A DNA stretch of 64,000 nucleotides, taken from Anatilimnocola aggregata (GTDB lineage: Bacteria; Planctomycetota; Planctomycetia; Pirellulales; Pirellulaceae). The stretch lies in contig NZ_CP036274.1 in the NCBI RefSeq assembly GCF_007747655.1, positions 558,001 through 622,000 of the forward strand. The letters are read 5' to 3'. The notes under the pieces were generated by a model, which was not told the origin of the DNA, did no database searches, and saw nothing but the letters and a program-made list of their open reading frames with translations. The position numbers and the translations under genes were made by a program. Positions within the stretch are counted from its first letter, which is position 1. Each line of letters begins with the position of its first letter. Of this stretch, positions 3,529 to 34,408 are shown piece after piece.

Positions 3529-4518
3529 CTATAGGCGGTAGTACTTCACCGCGTTCTCGCTGAAGAGCTTTTTCTGCTCTGCTTCGGATCGGGCGGCGAC
3601 GATTTGCCGCAGCGCTTCGGTCCAGGCTTTAAGTGGGGCACCGAGGAGGCAGACGGGCCAATCGCTGCCGAAGATGACGCGGTCGGGACCGAAGCTATCG
3701 AGGCAGTGATTGACGATGGGTGCTAGGTCGTCAGCTGACCACTCCTTCGTGACGCGGGCAATGATGCCGCTGATCTTGCAAAGGGTGTTCTTGCGCTTGG
3801 CAATTTCTGCGATCTCTTTTTTCCAGGGCTCCACGGTATGGTCTGGTTTTTGATCACCGCGACGGGTGGCCGAGAGCCAGGCCTTGGGATCGGCGTTGCC
3901 GCAGTGGTCGAGAATCAGTCGTGTGTCCGGGCACTTGTCGGCCAGCTGCGAAGCATCGGCCAGATCTCCAGGGCGCAGGCAAAGGTCGAAGCTCAGCCCC
4001 ATTTCGCCTAGCAATTGCACACTCTTCACATACGCGGGCGAAAGGCAGAAGCCGGCCGGGGTGCTATCGCCATGGAGCACTTGCCGCACACCTTTGATTT
4101 GCGGCGAGTCTTTGAACTGGGCGATGTACTTCTTAAATGCGGCTTCATCACCGGGGCGGCCAGAGATAACGGCACCCACTGTGGGCGCGGTGCCAGACTT
4201 GCAGATTGCGATCAAGTGCTCGGCCTCGGCAGTCTGTTGTTCCGGCGCGACATCGACCTCCATATAAACCGAGCGGTCGATGCCGGTTCCCACGATGGCC
4301 TGGCGGTAGTCGTCCAGCACGTAGCTGCGGGCGAGCACTCCGCTGGCGGGAAGCCAAGGCAACTTGAACTTGGTGACATCCCACAAGTGCTGATGACAAT
4401 CGATGAGCGGAAGCATTGGTTTTTCCTCGCGAGCGGTGGCCGTTGTTGCCAACAGACCAGCTGCGGCAGAACCGATGACCCAGTCACGTCGGGAGATTTC
4501 GCGTCGAGAGAGAGGCAT
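3529..4518 (-). CDS. amidohydrolase family protein with Tat signal
   Basis: A 329-residue metal-dependent hydrolase of the amidohydrolase-2 barrel family, near L-fuconolactonase and 2-pyrone-4,6-dicarboxylate hydrolases. The N-terminus SRREISRRDWVIGSAAAG has twin arginines followed by a hydrophobic stretch and an alanine-rich end, so export by Tat is likely. The metal-site motif LIDCHQHLWD follows at about residue 38; later come LILDHCGNADP and the closing FGSDWPV. This points to a lactone or related hydrolase outside the cytoplasm, but the substrate is not clear. It ends 27 bases from nadC in convergent orientation; no clear terminator is seen between them. Confidence 0.85.
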   Translation of the reverse strand: MPLSRREISRRDWVIGSAAAGLLATTATAREEKPMLPLIDCHQHLWDVTKFKLPWLPASGVLARSYVLDDYRQAIVGTGIDRSVYMEVDVAPEQQTAEAEHLIAICKSGTAPTVGAVISGRPGDEAAFKKYIAQFKDSPQIKGVRQVLHGDSTPAGFCLSPAYVKSVQLLGEMGLSFDLCLRPGDLADASQLADKCPDTRLILDHCGNADPKAWLSATRRGDQKPDHTVEPWKKEIAEIAKRKNTLCKISGIIARVTKEWSADDLAPIVNHCLDSFGPDRVIFGSDWPVCLLGAPLKAWTEALRQIVAARSEAEQKKLFSENAVKYYRL

Positions 4519-5053: not shown

Positions 5054-6850
5054 ATGAGCCTAGTTTCTTCGACCGTTTTGCACCGTAGTGGTGCCCAAGT
5101 CAGCGGTCTGCTGGTCGGTTTGATTCTACTGGCAACATGCCCTGCCGCAGAGCCTGCAGCGCCCAAACTAGCCACGCAACTGAGGCGGCCAATTGCTCTG
5201 GCCAATGATGCCCAAGGGGAATGGCTGTATGTGGCCAATCGCGAGAGTGGCAGCATTACCTCGCTGACCGCAGCTGGCAAAGTCACCAGCGAAACAGCGG
5301 TCGGCAAACAACTGTCTGACTTCATTCCGGTGCCCGGCAGCGATCTGTTTCTAGCTACCGACGAGCAAGCTCATCAACTGTTGGTCTTGCGAATGAAGGG
5401 TGACCAGATCACCGTTCTGCAACGGTTGGCAGTGAGTCCCTATCCGGTCGGTGTGACCGTGTGGGACGACGGCAAGCAAGCGGCGGTCACTTCCCTTTGG
5501 TCGCGCCGCGTATCATTCCTCGCACTGAACCGTAACGGTGATAAGAAACAGGAAATCGCACGCATCACGAAGGTGCTCGACCTTCCCTTCGCGCCGCGCA
5601 AACTCATCATGCTGCCGCAGCAGCAAAAGTTGATCGTCGCCGATTCGTTCAGCGGCAAGCTGGCGGTGATTGACCCGAAGAAGCAAACGCTGGAAGCTGT
5701 TCGTCAATTCCCAGGGCACAACATCCGCGGGTTGGGGATCAGCCCGAATGGCGAAATGTTGCTCGTCTCGCACCAAATGCTCAACGAACTGGCCCATACC
5801 ATTCGAAACGACGTTCACTGGGGCCTGCTGATGTCGAACGACCTGCGCTGGCTGAAGATCGAGTCGGTGCTGGCTGGCGGCAAGGAAACTTACTTCGGTT
5901 CGCACATGCACCCGCTGGGGGAAGCGGGCCAAGGTGGCGGCGATCCGGCGGGCTTCGATATCGCGACCGATGGAACGGTGGCGGTGACGATGTCTGGCGC
6001 GGGACAGATTGCCGTCGGCAAGGAAGAAGATTTTTCGCTCCAGCGGATCGAGGTCGGTCAGCGGCCCGTGGCGGTGAAGATCGCCGCCGATGGCAAAACG
6101 GCGCTGGTCGTCGATCAATATGCCGACTGCCTGGTGCGAGTCGACCTGGCGCTGCAAGAGGTGACCGAGCGGATTTCGCTGGGCCCCACGCCCGAGCTAA
6201 CCGAAGCACAGAAGGGAGAGGTTCTGTTTCACGACTCGCGGCTAGCTCACGACCGCTGGATGAGTTGCCATAGTTGTCACGCCGATGGTCATGCCAACGG
6301 CCAGATGAACGACAACTTCAGCGACAAGTCGTTCGGCGCGCCGAAGCGAGTTCTGTCGCTCCTCTCGCAGAAAGATACTGCCCCTTACGGCTGGAATGCC
6401 AAGGCCGAAGACCTGCTCGTGCAGATTCGCAACTCGCTAGAGAACACGATGCAGCGAGAGGATGAAATTCCCGCTGACGACGTGAAGGCCATCGCCGCTT
6501 ACGTGAGCACGCTCGAACTGCCGCCGCCGCTCGATGTGCTGCGCGGCACAACTGACTCAGCTGCCATCGCCCGCGGCAAACTCGTGTTCGAGAATCACGA
6601 CTGTGCCCGCTGCCACGCCGGACCCAACTTCACCACGCCCAAAGCTTACGACGTGGGTCTGACCGACAAGCAAGGGAACAAAGAGTTCAACCCACCCAGC
6701 CTCCGCGGACTCAGTCATCGCGGCCCCTTCTTCCACGACAACACCGCGGCGACGCTCGAAGACGTTTTTCTTAAGCACCAGCATCCGGCCAAGGCAGTAT
6801 ATAGTGCGGAAGAGATCAAAGACCTCGTGCATTACTTGCGGAGTTTGTAA
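5054..6850 (+). CDS. secreted beta-propeller protein with di-haem cytochrome c peroxidase-like domain
   Basis: A 598-residue exported protein. A hydrophobic stretch near residues 18-34 ending in CPAAEPA is a probable signal peptide. Residues 45-370 are YncE/lactonase-like propeller repeats (ANRESGSITSL, VADSFSGKLAVID). The C-terminal 200 residues resemble the MauG/cytochrome c peroxidase fold with two haem-binding motifs, CHSCH near residue 405 and CARCH near residue 517. The segment GLSHRGPFFHDNTAATLEDV is typical of that family. Such fusions are periplasmic electron carriers or peroxidases; the partner is not known. It is transcribed alone and meets the NADAR gene tail to tail. Confidence 0.87.
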   Translation: MSLVSSTVLHRSGAQVSGLLVGLILLATCPAAEPAAPKLATQLRRPIALANDAQGEWLYVANRESGSITSLTAAGKVTSETAVGKQLSDFIPVPGSDLFLATDEQAHQLLVLRMKGDQITVLQRLAVSPYPVGVTVWDDGKQAAVTSLWSRRVSFLALNRNGDKKQEIARITKVLDLPFAPRKLIMLPQQQKLIVADSFSGKLAVIDPKKQTLEAVRQFPGHNIRGLGISPNGEMLLVSHQMLNELAHTIRNDVHWGLLMSNDLRWLKIESVLAGGKETYFGSHMHPLGEAGQGGGDPAGFDIATDGTVAVTMSGAGQIAVGKEEDFSLQRIEVGQRPVAVKIAADGKTALVVDQYADCLVRVDLALQEVTERISLGPTPELTEAQKGEVLFHDSRLAHDRWMSCHSCHADGHANGQMNDNFSDKSFGAPKRVLSLLSQKDTAPYGWNAKAEDLLVQIRNSLENTMQREDEIPADDVKAIAAYVSTLELPPPLDVLRGTTDSAAIARGKLVFENHDCARCHAGPNFTTPKAYDVGLTDKQGNKEFNPPSLRGLSHRGPFFHDNTAATLEDVFLKHQHPAKAVYSAEEIKDLVHYLRSL

Positions 6851-29836: not shown

Positions 29837-29946
29837 CTAAGGCCACTTCAACTCCAGCAAGTTCACAACTCGGTCAGTCAAACCTTTCTCGTTGTCGCCG
29901 CCAAGGACGACTTTCAGCTGGCCAGCCGAGGCAATCTTTTCGAGCA
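29837..29946 (-). pseudogene. relic of the 3' end of a slipin gene
   Basis: On the minus strand this stretch reads KIASAGQLKVVLGGDNEKG and then LTDRVVNLL followed by five residues and a stop at 29837. It matches the last 30 codons of the intact slipin gene at 30868-31977. Bases 29855-29946 align with 30871-30962 without gaps; by eye about 80 of 92 bases match. The upstream frame is closed by TGA about ten codons before KIASAG. It is therefore a leftover fragment, not a gene. A small plus-strand frame at 29738-29950 merely overlaps it. Confidence 0.85.
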
Positions 29947-30057: not shown

Positions 30058-30828
30058 ATGGTCCGCATCATCTTCGCGGTCGCGTGTTGCCTCATTCTTG
30101 GTGGTTGCGGTCGTTCGCCGGCAAAAAAGCTTACTCCTCGCGCTCGACTCCCGGCCCCAGCGCAAGCTCAGCAGGCGGAGAGTATGCCGCCGCGTATGGC
30201 TAACAAGAAGAAGCCAGTCCAGGAGGAAGTGCCAACGCCGTTTCTTTCACCAAGTCAGTTGCAAGCCATCGAAGCTATGTGGGTCAATCATGCGTCGGAA
30301 GCAGGCGACGCTGATGAATTGACCATTGTCGAAGAAACGGATGACGAACGCCTGTTGCGCATGCATCGCGAGGAAATGGAAGCCGCAAAGGCTGCGCGTG
30401 ATTACCCGGAAGATGTTGAGGATGTGATGGAGGCTGTGCTGCGGCATCGCTTCAAGCAGGAATTTGCGGGCGGGCAACCTTGCACCGAAGGTCTCAGTAT
30501 TCTGGACCGCTGCCCGAGTGAGAAGTTTCTCAAACGCTTTGCCGGTGAAGCAGTAGCATTTCAGTTCGGCTATCTCAAAGATCGCCGTATGTCCTACGAG
30601 ATATATCAGTGGAAAATGACGCCGCCAGACCGTGCCGTTTGTTGGCTCGCTCAACACGACTCCGGAAGCATGTGCATTGACGCCTATGTGCTCAGTCGTA
30701 AGGAAGAACATTGGCACGTGGCAACAGTCCAAACCGTTTTATACGCATGTGGAGTCGTGGTAGATGTTCCTCAAATCAACCCGAATTCGAAATTAAGGCC
30801 GGCGCTGCGGCTGCTACTACGAGAGTAA
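30058..30828 (+). CDS. hypothetical lipoprotein
   Basis: A 256-residue protein with a lipobox: MVRIIFAVACCLILGGCGRS, where the cysteine after LGG is the lipidation site. A proline/alanine/glutamine-rich linker (residues 25-60) leads to a mixed domain with LDRCPSEKFLKRFAGEA and YEIYQWKMTPPDRAVC. I do not recognise the family. It is a single gene, with no upstream partner, and its stop is followed by a strong hairpin. It sits between the slipin relic and the intact slipin gene. Confidence 0.75.
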   Translation: MVRIIFAVACCLILGGCGRSPAKKLTPRARLPAPAQAQQAESMPPRMANKKKPVQEEVPTPFLSPSQLQAIEAMWVNHASEAGDADELTIVEETDDERLLRMHREEMEAAKAARDYPEDVEDVMEAVLRHRFKQEFAGGQPCTEGLSILDRCPSEKFLKRFAGEAVAFQFGYLKDRRMSYEIYQWKMTPPDRAVCWLAQHDSGSMCIDAYVLSRKEEHWHVATVQTVLYACGVVVDVPQINPNSKLRPALRLLLRE

Positions 30829-30867: not shown

Positions 30868-31977
30868 TTACAGCAAGTTCACGACTCGGTTCGCGAGTCC
30901 TTTCTCGCTGTCGCCGCCAAGGACGATCTTCAACTGGCCAGCCGAGGCGATCTTTTCGAGCACCTCGAGCTCGCGCAGCCGCATGAGCGTCGGCTGATCG
31001 GCGAGCAGCTTGGCCGTGTTGGCCTGGCTGCGGATTGCGGCCGTTTCTTCACGGCGAGCAATCAGGTTCGCTTCGGCAGCCTTCTTGGCTTCCGTTACGC
31101 GGTTCATCAGATCCTTCATTTCGCCCGGCAGGATTACATCGCGAATACCGACTGCGATGACCTCGATGCCGAGTTCCGCCGCGCGAACGCGGATCGCAGC
31201 GCTCAGTTCCTGAGCAACTTCGTCCTTGCCCGCGAGGAACGCGTCGAGTTCACGGCCGCCGATGATCGCCCGCAGAGCCAACTGTGCCTCGCGGTACAGC
31301 GCCTGCCGCGCGTCGTCGGCTGCGCTAACTGCCCGGCGAGCATCGACAATGCGATACGTCACTAGCGCGTTCACACGCAACGTCACCTTGTCAGCCGTCA
31401 TGATTTCCTGACCGCTGATGTCGGCTGCCGTTTCGCGCATGTCGACTTCCACCACGCGGGCCTCGGCCGCACCCTTCCAGAATGCGTACTGTCCCGGCGC
31501 CAGCGTTTCGATGTAGCGACCGTCGATGAACAGCACGCCCACTCGGTCGCGCTGAACCTCGCAAATGTCGAGCAACACCTTGGCCGCAGCCGTGCGAGCA
31601 ATGACCTTCAGGTCTTTATGCTCGAACCGCGCCTGGCGGATATCGATCATCTCGACGTTCACTCGCTTCTGACCGAGCCAATAGGCATACAGGCCCGCAC
31701 CCAGAATCTGGCTGAAGCGACCTTCGATCCACACGAGCGCGCGCTGCTGGTCCTGCACATCGAGCACTTCAGCCTGTCCGGCGAGCAGACCAGACTTCAC
31801 GATCAAGTCGAGCTTCTCGTGGGCAAGCCACGGTTCTCGGCGCGAAACGATCGTCACGCGCGACTGGCTCCAGGGATCAAACCGCCAGTGCGTACCTTCG
31901 CCGAGCAAGCCGACAAACTCACGGTCGCGGAAGACGAGACCCATCTCGTAACTAAGAATTTTGATGCGGTGGAACAT
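30868..31977 (-). CDS. slipin (SPFH/band-7 family protein)
   Basis: A 369-residue stomatin-like protein. The band-7 domain spans residues 100-310 with YREAQLALRAIIGGRELDAF near residue 230 and AELGIEVIAVGIRDVILPG. The final part holds an alanine-rich coiled helix (TEAKKAAEANLIARREETAA). It lacks a clear N-terminal membrane helix; residues 1-90 form a positively charged start and a beta-rich region. Slipins assemble on membranes and bind proteases; the partner is usually NfeD, which is not next to it. The ATG at 31977 is used. A relic of a second copy lies at 29837-29946. REP-like repeats follow upstream. Confidence 0.9.
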   Translation of the reverse strand: MFHRIKILSYEMGLVFRDREFVGLLGEGTHWRFDPWSQSRVTIVSRREPWLAHEKLDLIVKSGLLAGQAEVLDVQDQQRALVWIEGRFSQILGAGLYAYWLGQKRVNVEMIDIRQARFEHKDLKVIARTAAAKVLLDICEVQRDRVGVLFIDGRYIETLAPGQYAFWKGAAEARVVEVDMRETAADISGQEIMTADKVTLRVNALVTYRIVDARRAVSAADDARQALYREAQLALRAIIGGRELDAFLAGKDEVAQELSAAIRVRAAELGIEVIAVGIRDVILPGEMKDLMNRVTEAKKAAEANLIARREETAAIRSQANTAKLLADQPTLMRLRELEVLEKIASAGQLKIVLGGDSEKGLANRVVNLL

Positions 31978-31991
31978 GCGGAAACACCTCC

Positions 31992-32104
31992 GTAGGTCGC
32001 ATCCGCTAGATGCGACCAAGCGATCAGGACGATACAAATCGGCAGTTGAATGTGTTGGTTACGAATCGGAGATTCCAAGGTCACATCCGGCGGATGTGAC
32101 CTAC
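31992..32104. repeat. inverted pair of REP-like elements upstream of slipin
   Basis: 31992-32017 (GTAGGTCGCATCCGCTAGAT and GCGACC) and 32079-32104 (its diverged reverse complement, GGTCACATCCGGCGGATGTG and ACCTAC) each form their own hairpin (GGTCGCATC with GATGCGACC; GGTCACATCC with GGATGTGACC). About 60 bases lie between them. Confidence 0.85.
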
Positions 32105-32508
32105 TGAACTCGGGCAATTCAAAAAAAGGCCGCGGGGAGACGCGTCATCACGAAATCACAACGAGTAGTCGCGGAATGACGCTTGAGCTTGCCTCTGCTG
32201 GTCGGCAGCAGCGGATGGTGCAAAAGGGATGATGACAGGGGCAGGCCCGTGTCGCGCATCACACTTTCTTTCTCGTCCGAGATGGCCGAAAGCAGGAGCA
32301 GGCCGCGGCGCACTACAGAGCGGTACTCGATTGCTGCCCCGATTGCCGAAGTGAACTAAGTTCTAGCAATCGCAGTGGACAAGCCACCGCAATCGCTGCT
32401 GCACTTCATTTCGGGCCAATCGAGGCCGATTTCCTGGTTGCCACGTCTCCCGTTGGCTACTTGGCGAAAATGCTTCCGCATTTCCATGTTGTTGGTTTTT
32501 AGCCAACA
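32105..32508. other. gene-free stretch with one imperfect hairpin
   Basis: No coding frame here is convincing. At 32363-32397 a 14-bp stem with three A-C mismatches (AGCAATCGCAGTGG with CCACCGCAATCGCT, five-base loop) resembles yet another REP-like element. The rest shows nothing recognisable. Confidence 0.55.
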
Positions 32509-32581
32509 TGCGTTGGACGGGAGTCGAACCCGCTACCCACAGATTGAGTATCTGTTGCTCTACCCAGTGAGCTACCAAATC
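32509..32581 (-). tRNA. tRNA-like sequence, lysine-type body with CTC anticodon
   Basis: The 73-nt minus-strand sequence folds as a tRNA: D-stem GCTC/GAGC with D-loop ACTGGGTA, anticodon stem ACAGA/TCTGT, variable loop GGGTA, and T-arm with TTCGACT. It is closest to tRNA-Lys(CTT). Unusual features: the anticodon loop reads TACTCAA, so the anticodon would be CTC and position 33 is A instead of the near-universal T; acceptor pairs 2-71 and 3-70 do not match. No CCA is encoded. It may be a pseudo-tRNA or an altered tRNA. The flanks hold no gene. Confidence 0.55.
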
Positions 32582-32762
32582 GATGACGGAGGTTCAGAAT
32601 CCAGTAAGGAACACCAAGCTATGCGGATCACTCCGACGCTCGCTTGCCCCTGGCCTGCCGGCATCAACGCTTGCCTGGTCCTGCGTTTGTATTGTTCGAA
32701 ACAGTTCACTCTTTTTCTCCTGTCTCAGAACTCAAAACCTAGAACACTGAACTTCTTCGAAG
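32582..32762. other. gene-free spacer between two tRNA-like sequences
   Basis: About 180 bases without a convincing coding frame or repeat. It separates the two tRNA-like sequences on the same strand. A GGTTCAGAATCC motif at 32591-32602 resembles a T-arm B box on the plus strand, but no tRNA fold surrounds it. Confidence 0.4.
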
Positions 32763-32832
32763 CACGAGTGCGAGGATTTGAACCCCGTGCCGCAGTTTTG
32801 GAGGCTGCTTGCTCTCCCAGGAGCACGCTCGT
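32763..32832 (-). tRNA. degenerate tRNA-like sequence, tryptophan (CCA) type
   Basis: About 70 nt on the minus strand. The anticodon loop CTCCAAA carries CCA (Trp) with T33, in a stem GCAGC/ACTGC with one mismatch at the closing pair. The T-arm CGGGG-TTCAAAT-CCTCG is well kept. The acceptor arms ACGAGCG and CACTCGT pair with one mismatch. The D-arm lacks A9, its loop is only six bases, and an extra A follows. It is probably a tRNA pseudogene rather than the main tRNA-Trp. Bases 32833-33022 beyond it show only a leader for the next gene. Confidence 0.45.
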
Positions 32833-33022: not shown

Positions 33023-34408
33023 ATGAAGATCTTTAGCGATCTTAAGGCTTACCGCCTCTTAGTCACAAGTGTTTGCCTGGCAAGTTGCTTCCTGTTGGCA
33101 GTCGACGTGCAGGCAGCAACGCCGCATGCGAACGACCCCGATATTTCGCGTCAACTGAAGGAACTAAAGCCCGGTGAATCGCTGCTTCTTCCGAAGGTCA
33201 AACACATGGCCGACGGCAAACCGATCGACGGCACGGGGCGGAACGGTCCGTACTCGCGCGACTACACGAACAAAATGGTTTACGCTCCCGAGCGGCAAAC
33301 CGCGTTGTATGCCGGCGGCAATCACGGTGCGGGAAGAATGAACGACGTCTGGGAATATCACCTCGGCAGCAACACCTGGCATCGTCTGCACATTGCCGAT
33401 GGCGGGGACCATGCCCGGTTCAAGTTCGCGCTGATGTTTTATCCGCGGATGATTCTAAAAAACCCCAATCCCGAACTGAACGACAAGCAGCAGGCGGAGA
33501 TAGCAACCTGTCAGCCCTGGTGGAATGAGAACGTCGTGCTGCGGGACGGTAACTTCGTCATGCGCAATACCGGCGCGCCGCTCCTTGTCGGCCATACCTG
33601 GGACACACTCATGTATGACCCAATCAACAAGCGGCTTGTGCATGGGACCGGAGCACACTGCGCGAATCTTCCTTGGCTCGAACATCGCTTTCGTGGCACA
33701 CCCCTGGCGGAGGTCGAAGCGGCCCATGGCAAGCGAGCCGATGGCACTCCGTGGCGACGTCCGTGGACGTTTGATCCAGCCACCGGCAAATGGAGCCCCT
33801 ACGCGCACTCCAGCCCGATTCCAGAACTGGATGGGATGGCTGGGTCGCTGCTTTACATTCCCGATCGGCAGCAAGCCGTTTGGTACTACGCCGCTCAGAA
33901 CACACCAGGCGCGCCGCACGTCATGGCACTGTGGGATCTGAAAAACGATACTTGGACTGACCTCAAACCCAACGACGGAGTCTCACTCGGCAAACTGAGC
34001 ACGCAGTTGAAGGTTGCCCCGATCAGCGAGCAGCAAATGGTGTATTACCCGCCGCGACAGCAGATAATTGCCGTGCTTGGCCAGTCGACATTCGGATACG
34101 ACTTCGCCAGCAATGCCTGGTCGAAACTGAATGACTCCGTTCCGTTCGATGCCCATGATGCAAAAACGGTGTTTGTTTACGACGAGCAGGCCCAAGTTTG
34201 CCTGCTCTGTGCTCCCAACAAGAATCAGGTAGCAGCTTTCGATCCCCACAAGAACGAATGGCGCGGCATAGAGCCCGACGGTCCTGGCATCCCCAAACCG
34301 GCCTATAACGTGGGAAAGGGTTATTACGATCCAACGCACCGGGTGTTCGTCGTCCACGCAGCAAACATGGACCGTATCTGGGTTTATCGTCATCCGCGCG
34401 CGGCATAG
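33023..34408 (+). CDS. secreted kelch-like beta-propeller protein
   Basis: A 461-residue exported protein. The signal peptide is about residues 1-31 (LLVTSVCLASCFLLAVDVQA). The body has repeated propeller-type blades: YAPERQTALYAGGNHGAGRM, NDVWEYHLGSNTWHRL, YDPINKRLVHGTGAH, YIPDRQQAVWYYAAQN, ALWDLKNDTWTDLKP and FVYDEQAQVCLLCAPNK, which look like kelch/galactose-oxidase strands. No copper ligand set for oxidase activity is obvious, so a structural or binding role is as likely. The gene stands alone, downstream of the tRNA-like region. Confidence 0.78.
   Translation: MKIFSDLKAYRLLVTSVCLASCFLLAVDVQAATPHANDPDISRQLKELKPGESLLLPKVKHMADGKPIDGTGRNGPYSRDYTNKMVYAPERQTALYAGGNHGAGRMNDVWEYHLGSNTWHRLHIADGGDHARFKFALMFYPRMILKNPNPELNDKQQAEIATCQPWWNENVVLRDGNFVMRNTGAPLLVGHTWDTLMYDPINKRLVHGTGAHCANLPWLEHRFRGTPLAEVEAAHGKRADGTPWRRPWTFDPATGKWSPYAHSSPIPELDGMAGSLLYIPDRQQAVWYYAAQNTPGAPHVMALWDLKNDTWTDLKPNDGVSLGKLSTQLKVAPISEQQMVYYPPRQQIIAVLGQSTFGYDFASNAWSKLNDSVPFDAHDAKTVFVYDEQAQVCLLCAPNKNQVAAFDPHKNEWRGIEPDGPGIPKPAYNVGKGYYDPTHRVFVVHAANMDRIWVYRHPRAA

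Follow-up and report, generated by a model that had tools for sequence, protein, structure and literature searches.

The window, i.e., the 64 kb stretch of Anatilimnocola aggregata DNA analysed here, comes from a single-contig genome of 9.0 Mb with 69 tRNA matches (E up to 0.001), and ARAGORN run over its whole length calls exactly two tRNA genes in it, both on the minus strand. Both lie in the intergenic stretch between a minus-strand gene coding for a Band_7/SPFH protein of the slipin family (30868-31977; PF01145, 107.9 bits) and, on the other flank, a plus-strand kelch-type gene (33023-34408). The one closer to the slipin gene, termed module X (32509-32581), is called as Glu-CTC by ARAGORN and recovers the tRNA family as the sole Rfam model at its cut-off (45.1 bits vs a cut-off of 29; E 2.3e-6 in the window). 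The other, a supernumerary tRNA-Trp(CCA) (32762-32832), is called as Trp-CCA and scores 24.0 bits, i.e., under the same cut-off (E 0.022 in a 1 kb stretch). The earlier note's proposal of two real tRNA-like sequences at these sites is upheld, as are its structural details: X has the anticodon loop TACTCAA, viz., A33 followed by CTC, and two unpaired acceptor positions, and the Trp gene has a shortened D-arm and a C31-A39 mismatch. Its assignment of a lysine-type body to X is weaker, in that tRNA-Lys(UUU) is indeed the best match in the same genome but tRNA-Phe and tRNA-Trp score almost equally.

That note missed the position of X 5' of the co-oriented slipin gene. The slipin ORF lacks internal stops and codes for approximately 369 amino acids from an ATG at 31977, 531 nt downstream of X. 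X itself forms the core of an extended slipin-leader RNA on the minus strand (32483-32613, delineated by a match to the R1 model described below) comprised of a GTTCC motif (32608-32612) 5' of X, X, and a 3' hairpin. When the ORFs of 22 stretches were compared, the window slipin clustered with genes found 3' of X (eight loci in total), all of the Band_7/SPFH family. A promoter/terminator scan recognised neither a sigma-70-like promoter nor an intrinsic terminator at the locus.

Several further features were observed in the vicinity. Two similar palindromes (GGTCGCATC.../GGTCACATC...) occur just upstream of the slipin gene at 31995-32017 and 32079-32101, and are probably the palindromic repeats mentioned in the earlier note. 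The 3' end of the slipin gene is present in a second minus-strand copy, recovered as a tblastn fragment, forming a 92-nt direct repeat (29855-29946 vs 30871-30962; 87% identity; approximately 0.9 kb apart), with an ORF lacking a Pfam match (30058-30828, plus strand) between the two copies, as if an insertion had occurred at the 3' end of the gene. Directly 3' of the tRNA-Trp gene (32713-32758), about 40 nt correspond to a dispersed repeat with 12 other matches in a genome of the same genus (G001) and one in the A. aggregata genome. Families such as PSD1/PSCyt, like the closest named relatives, indicate that the genome is planctomycetal.

A second tRNA set and the long tRNA arrays

A DNA search of 60 genomes, including that of A. 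aggregata, recovered the Trp segment from 16 others (77-88% identity), in each of which ARAGORN calls Trp-CCA, placing the gene beyond a chance resemblance; a 17th orthologue (G040) was recovered by ARAGORN alone, bringing the total to 17 of 59 relatives. The raw tally for this region, 54 of the 60 genomes, consists mostly of cross-matches of other tRNAs and of the dispersed repeat. Across the 18 orthologues, 96.8% of the cells in paired columns are paired (99.2% in the acceptor stem), the CTCCAAA loop is invariant, and two-sided changes are seen in 10 of the 21 pairs against a mean of 4.7 in shuffled alignments, none of the 500 shuffles reaching as high a value. Ten of the 18 lack a pair at position 31:39 and the other pairs covary, and so the mismatched stem is a trait of the family; the short D-arm is likewise common to nearly all the orthologues. 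In its well-paired acceptor, unvarying CCA anticodon, and U33, the family thus agrees with a canonical decoding tRNA, even though the window copy has one unpaired acceptor pair and falls below the Rfam cut-off.

The orthologues are usually embedded in long tRNA arrays. At least seven tRNAs were found in the fetched stretch in 14 of the 17 relatives, with 42, 40, 37, 32, 29, and 26 in the six richest, where they are closely spaced and on the same strand, and 7-19 in eight more; the remaining relatives have four (G028) or the Trp gene alone (G030 and G001, the latter with its Trp gene at a contig end). Gene order in these arrays is largely preserved: relative to the 42-tRNA array, 33/39, 36/37, 29/30, 28/28, and 26/26 shared tRNAs are collinear in five genomes. 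Two of the arrays, with 30 tRNAs in Adhaeretor mobilis and 28 in Lacipirellula limnantheis, are chromosomal according to the titles of their records. The A. aggregata genome has comparable pieces in the form of clusters of divergent tRNAs at 6.93 Mb (eight genes), 7.02 Mb (10), and 4.07 Mb (seven) besides the lone Trp gene. The 25 clustered tRNAs and the window Trp gene amount to 26 genes with 26 different anticodons at four loci, among which no Thr tRNA was found; two Ser tRNAs (L004, L044) first grouped with the array were counted as ordinary ones. Ordinary tRNAs for all 20 amino acids, including Trp-CCA, Glu-CTC, Lys-TTT, and Lys-CTT, are also present and mostly scattered, making the set with the window Trp gene supernumerary to a full housekeeping complement. 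All seven acceptor pairs are formed in 23 of the 25 clustered tRNAs (taking the 3' end as the best of five offsets); the two exceptions are a Met tRNA unpaired at 1:72, as expected of an initiator, and a His tRNA at one pair. The 10- and seven-gene clusters share no anticodon despite corresponding to the same stretch of the ancestral order, which may point to complementary retention.

Compared across genomes, the second tRNA set of A. aggregata is best understood as a dispersed derivative of a long tRNA array, and its Trp gene at 32762-32832 as a conserved reserve tRNA-Trp from a near-complete second set rather than debris. The suggestion of a decayed tRNA array is hence borne out as regards the array, the Trp gene belonging to arrays of up to 42 tRNAs and relatives of X occurring at the array 3' end in several genomes, and not as regards the decay.

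The protein genes identified with the arrays code for an HNH endonuclease and for a family with no match in Pfam, NCBIfam, or PADLOC. Members of the latter, proteins of approximately 265 amino acids, are encoded within, or close to, tRNA arrays or slipin loci (L084:362-1156, L080:8873-9661, L085, L102, L105, L113, L144, L147, L149), the L084 copy being the one that was searched against the three collections. PADLOC returned 17 weak matches for the array HNH and nothing for two slipins, a nucleotidyltransferase, and the second array protein. The planctomycete array HNH shows 36.7% identity to an HNH protein whose gene abuts 24 ARAGORN tRNAs on a Nostoc plasmid, and relatives of it occur in 61 phage records. 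A mobile carrier for the locus was considered and rejected, as plasmid and phage searches gave little: the Trp gene had no plasmid match at E 0.01, X had partial tRNA-level matches alone (14 plasmid records), and a search of the phage collection with the slipin (E 1e-10) was negative.

Candidate further array remnants at 0.55, 1.18, 1.68, 2.95, and 6.83 Mb (two at the last) were also rejected, since by eye they look like tRNA halves. These six sequences (L045 near 5660-5714; L182, L183, L184, L004) resemble halves of tRNA-Cys, Val, Phe, and Ser when compared with the tRNAs of the same genome, and are probably attachment-site scars of integrated elements. Separately, a 98-nt class II tRNA-like gene was noticed on the minus strand at 8620153-8620250 (G000:C1; L043:454-551), which scores 49.3 bits with the Rfam tRNA model, is not called by ARAGORN, and seemingly has the anticodon loop TTTGGAA.

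The tRNA-like RNA upstream of slipin genes

We extracted 54 X modules by means of D-arm and T-arm motifs and aligned 46 of them, leaving out eight that were divergent, shortened, near-duplicates, or possibly ordinary tRNAs (L090, L144, L146, L149, L171, L177, L178, L180). While the conservation of the D- and T-arms in this alignment (A3) is partly by construction, those motifs having picked the modules, the anticodon stem played no part in the selection and is nevertheless 97.8% paired, with two-sided changes in all five of its pairs; sliding the alignment as a control lowers the paired cells from 88% to 29-40%. In the acceptor stem, pairs 4-7 are formed in 35, 38, 42, and 46 of the 46 modules, whereas pairs 1-3 are unpaired in 28, 33, and 25. 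The anticodon columns approach the maximal entropy of 2 bits (1.97, 1.84, and 1.91), and the predicted anticodons of the relatives include His-ATG, Leu-CAG, Ile-GAT, Stop-TTA, Pro-AGG, and others. A GTTCC motif occurs within 90 nt upstream in 33 of the 46 modules and downstream in one. The open outer acceptor pairs and the free anticodon thus recur as traits of a family and are not defects of one copy.

Taken together, these 46 modules do not show the 7-bp acceptor stem, conserved anticodon, and U33 of a canonical decoding tRNA, and the window copy with its A33 and two unpaired acceptor pairs conforms to this pattern. From its conservation pattern, we interpret X as a mimic of tRNA whose acceptor end is cut back and which shows no sign of decoding constraint; decoding by it is unlikely, given the non-conserved anticodon and the shortened acceptor stem, and the mis-decoding CTC tRNA envisaged in the earlier note is improbable on the same grounds. 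That note had also regarded both genes as damaged. This does not agree with the 31:39 position being open in over half of the covarying Trp orthologues, with the intact acceptors of nearly all the clustered array tRNAs, or with the recurrence of the X traits in its relatives; neither family displays the uncompensated loss of pairing and absence of constraint by which tRNA pseudogenes are recognised.

To place X genome-wide, we built a covariance model, R1 (134 positions), from an alignment of 23 sequences (A5), ran it on 146 genomes of the order, and searched slipin separately in them (E up to 1e-60). The window match (G000:C1:590483-590613) scores 100.5 bits, the window sequence being itself one of the 23 in the model. 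All 146 genomes yield R1 matches, as ordinary tRNAs match too and are separated by score; four of the slipin-linked matches (G019, G113, G128, G132; 67.8-75.3 bits) fall within the ordinary-tRNA score range. Among the matches listed, R1 lies upstream of slipin on the same strand in 30 of the 32 genomes with slipin, at 383-503 nt in 28 of the 30 and at 1159 and 1601 nt in G083 and G159; the two genomes lacking an upstream match have both elements at contig ends (G050) or a partial slipin (G090). Read from the side of the RNA, the best 28 R1 matches (at least 84.5 bits) include 24 that precede a slipin gene, one beside a broken slipin (G040), the contig-end case of G050, and two (G081, G119) from genomes in which no slipin match was found. 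The next four comprise two that precede slipin (G042, G106), an ordinary tRNA-Lys (G048), and one with no slipin match (G052). In a further genome (G004), X lies at the end of an array and no slipin was found. This test is not fully independent for A. aggregata, G037, G044, G053, and G056, which gave training sequences, and the named training loci may duplicate other genomes; for the remaining genomes, where the R1 matches fall with respect to slipin is independent evidence.

The association extends well beyond the planctomycetes. Ten slipin sequences used as queries against a collection of 84,980 genomes yielded at least 576 confirmed relatives, of which the best 80 loci were kept; judged by record title, they span Planctomycetota, Acidobacteriota, Desulfobacterota, Bacteroidota, Paenibacillus, Gamma- and Alphaproteobacteria, Verrucomicrobiota, and others. 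Among the culturable relatives with both X and slipin are Blastopirellula marina DSM 3645, Rhodopirellula baltica, Adhaeretor mobilis, and Lacipirellula limnantheis, the last two of which have the array as well (loci L123, L115, L111, L113). T-arms were sought by a fixed loop pattern with at least four of five stem pairs within 800 nt on either side of slipin, with 78 of these 80 loci counted (L104 and L127, with less than 300 nt upstream, were left out). Upstream of slipin, 70 of the 78 have a T-arm on the coding strand and none of the 78 has one on the opposite strand; downstream, both strands together, a T-arm occurs in 12. Array tRNAs may add to this count, yet ARAGORN calls fewer than five tRNAs at 63 of the 80 loci. 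No upstream T-arm was detected in the other eight (L105, L107, L110, L131, L133, L136, L138, L143), and in three of these (L131, L133, L136) a gene for the RNA ligase RtcB directly precedes slipin, such that any leader would sit further up.

Certain leaders depart from the simple form. Several from Bacteroidota (among L161-L181) and Phycisphaerae have two or three tandem T-arms, and some of the Bacteroidota modules (again among L161-L181) lack the length for a complete anticodon arm. In an Escherichia coli locus (L097; CP061233.1, approximately 3730-3840), the slipin leader has T-arm-like hairpins and a GTTCC stretch, with no tRNA detected in it by ARAGORN or Rfam, and a nucleotidyltransferase gene follows the slipin there.

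Arrays, slipin, and RNA-repair neighbours

Across the 60 genomes, the Trp gene is present in 18 and slipin in 20, with both in eight against approximately six expected, i.e., no clear excess of co-occurrence over chance; a partial slipin match of 38% identity in G028 was not counted as an orthologue. Ten of the 18 Trp genomes, including that with the 42-tRNA array, lack slipin. Where both are present, however, the Trp gene or array end adjoins slipin and the tRNA-like RNA in seven of the eight genomes (that of A. aggregata included; the slipin of G040 is broken), and in the eighth (G001) each lies at a contig end. The tie between the array and slipin therefore comes from adjacency where both are present and not from co-occurrence. 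In other genomes with arrays, relatives of X follow the last tRNAs of the array (after tRNA-Cys in G004, G037, G040, G053, and G056), with different anticodons and a conserved 5' motif. Among the best 80 slipin loci (stretches of 4-15 kb), 17 contain an RtcB homolog, five the nucleotidyltransferase that comes after slipin in E. coli, six the array HNH, and six the second array protein; in A. aggregata, the RtcB match is at 4.21 Mb, away from slipin.

These elements have counterparts in systems that are known separately. A 2021 paper by Santamaria-Gomez in NAR is said to treat L-arrays, and a 2016 abstract by Burroughs and Aravind in the same journal reportedly describes SPFH/Band-7 modules with "a novel tRNA-like molecule". 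By that definition, X, with its tRNA-like fold and its position beside a Band-7 gene in the same orientation, belongs with such RNAs: its cognate protein is of the Band-7 type, and at some loci RtcB or a nucleotidyltransferase is encoded nearby. Here X is defined by covariation, with a cut-back acceptor, a free anticodon, and a 5' GTTCC, and can join a long tRNA array.

In Anabaena sp. PCC 7120, a 26-tRNA trn operon is described as shut off in ordinary culture and switched on by translational stress, when rtcB, the HNH gene all8564, and the slipin gene alr0740 rise along with it; the repressor TrcR is described as controlling the trn operon, rtcB, HNH genes, and alr0740 (PMC10272220). The term L-array for such a long tRNA array, and the adjacency of an HNH gene to it, are given in PMC9938897, and one SPFH gene of Pseudomonas aeruginosa is placed within its rtc locus (PMC13086221). 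As far as these descriptions go, the planctomycete arrays resemble the Anabaena L-array in their supernumerary, closely spaced tRNAs of one orientation next to an HNH endonuclease, the Anabaena array being additionally co-regulated with rtcB and slipin. They differ from it in reaching 42 tRNAs with their order largely kept and in being chromosomal in some cases, in the dispersal of the set into pieces in A. aggregata, and in the slipin and its tRNA-like RNA adjoining the Trp or array end in seven of eight genomes. Among the matches listed from the open-access literature, no paper was found that joins planctomycete arrays to slipin.

Predicted functions and competing readings

The most likely reading of the comparative evidence is that the locus combines an emergency tRNA set with an RNA-repair scaffold module, i.e., a reserve tRNA set beside the tRNA-like RNA of a slipin RNA-repair module (probability roughly 0.7). 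We are highly confident of the identities, viz., the Trp gene as part of a second tRNA set and X as tied to slipin and seemingly non-decoding; the mechanism as a whole is proposed with good but lesser confidence. Two different RNAs of one stress and repair theme would accordingly lie side by side. The tRNA-Trp is predicted to be functional and, by analogy to the Anabaena array, may stay off during normal growth and be switched on by impaired translation, with the reserve tRNAs replacing damaged or blocked housekeeping ones. X would be a non-decoding tRNA mimic that takes part in RNA repair together with slipin as the membrane scaffold, either as a docking RNA or bait for tRNA-handling enzymes such as the RtcB ligase and the nucleotidyltransferase, or by controlling slipin expression as a leader that is processed or cleaved. 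The scaffold-RNA role is slightly preferred over a pure leader role, and only slightly, because the near-constant spacing favours a shared transcript, whereas X-like RNAs without slipin oppose a purely cis role.

That X acts solely in cis, as a tRNA-shaped sensor in the 5' leader of the slipin mRNA that is cut by tRNA endonucleases or RNase P/Z, making slipin expression depend on tRNA damage or processing load, is a serious option that overlaps with the leader alternative above, though we consider it on balance doubtful. Its co-orientation with a downstream slipin gene at 70 of 78 loci, the 383-503 nt spacing in 28 of 30 genomes, the tandem T-arms of several Bacteroidota and Phycisphaerae loci, and an anticodon loop as unconstrained as a bait could be all favour it; the X-like RNAs of G004, G081, and G119, with no slipin found, and the distances in G083 and G159, which reach 1.2 and 1.6 kb, do not. 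A more elaborate variant of the preferred reserve-and-repair reading, speculative and rather unlikely, would make X a non-chargeable bait whose free anticodon loop serves as the target of tRNA-cleaving toxins or of anticodon nucleases triggered by phage, recruiting the slipin platform and RtcB while the reserve set refills the tRNA pool. If it held, the array, X, and slipin would constitute one heritable tRNA-damage emergency kit of Planctomycetes that has been misread as degenerate tRNA clusters.

Such a degenerate state is the substance of the improbable alternative in which both genes are decaying pseudogenes, remnants of a horizontally acquired, degenerate array with no function. The low tRNA-model scores and the broken-up array of A. 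aggregata are in keeping with it, and Kim et al. (2016; PMC4807772) describe planctomycete tRNA clusters as "degenerate", with partially degraded and perhaps dispensable tRNAs. By that description, their low-scoring clusters from several planctomycete genomes are like those reported here; however, the pairing, covariation, and order seen here argue for maintenance. Conservation and covariation reach across families of the order, the same supposed defects recur in many relatives, 23 of the 25 array tRNAs retain intact acceptor stems, and the array order is kept with no anticodon repeated. A charged tRNA that suppresses or mistranslates, with a CTC anticodon on a Lys-like body, is a still less probable identity for X: the ARAGORN call of Glu-CTC is in its favour, but the predicted anticodons differ between relatives, A33 and the mostly unpaired acceptor pairs 1-3 are ill-suited to it, and the genome has an ordinary Glu-CTC gene. 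A bacterial Y RNA (YrlA) for Ro60 resembles X, according to the description in PMC7790460, in carrying a tRNA-like domain and in its RNA-repair operon context. This identity was rejected as very improbable on a score of 14 bits with the YrlA model against a cut-off of 69 and the absence of a TROVE match in the A. aggregata genome; X thus differs from YrlA in having neither a Ro60/TROVE partner nor a match to the family model.

The preferred reading of a reserve set beside a slipin-linked RNA corrects a natural misreading, in that low-scoring planctomycete tRNAs resemble debris and yet keep their covariation, their order, and one gene per anticodon. The reserve tRNA array, the tRNA-like RNA, and slipin, each known separately, meet at one locus in some of these genomes, and with the three at one locus, culturable planctomycetes offer a way to test what the arrays and the slipin RNA do.
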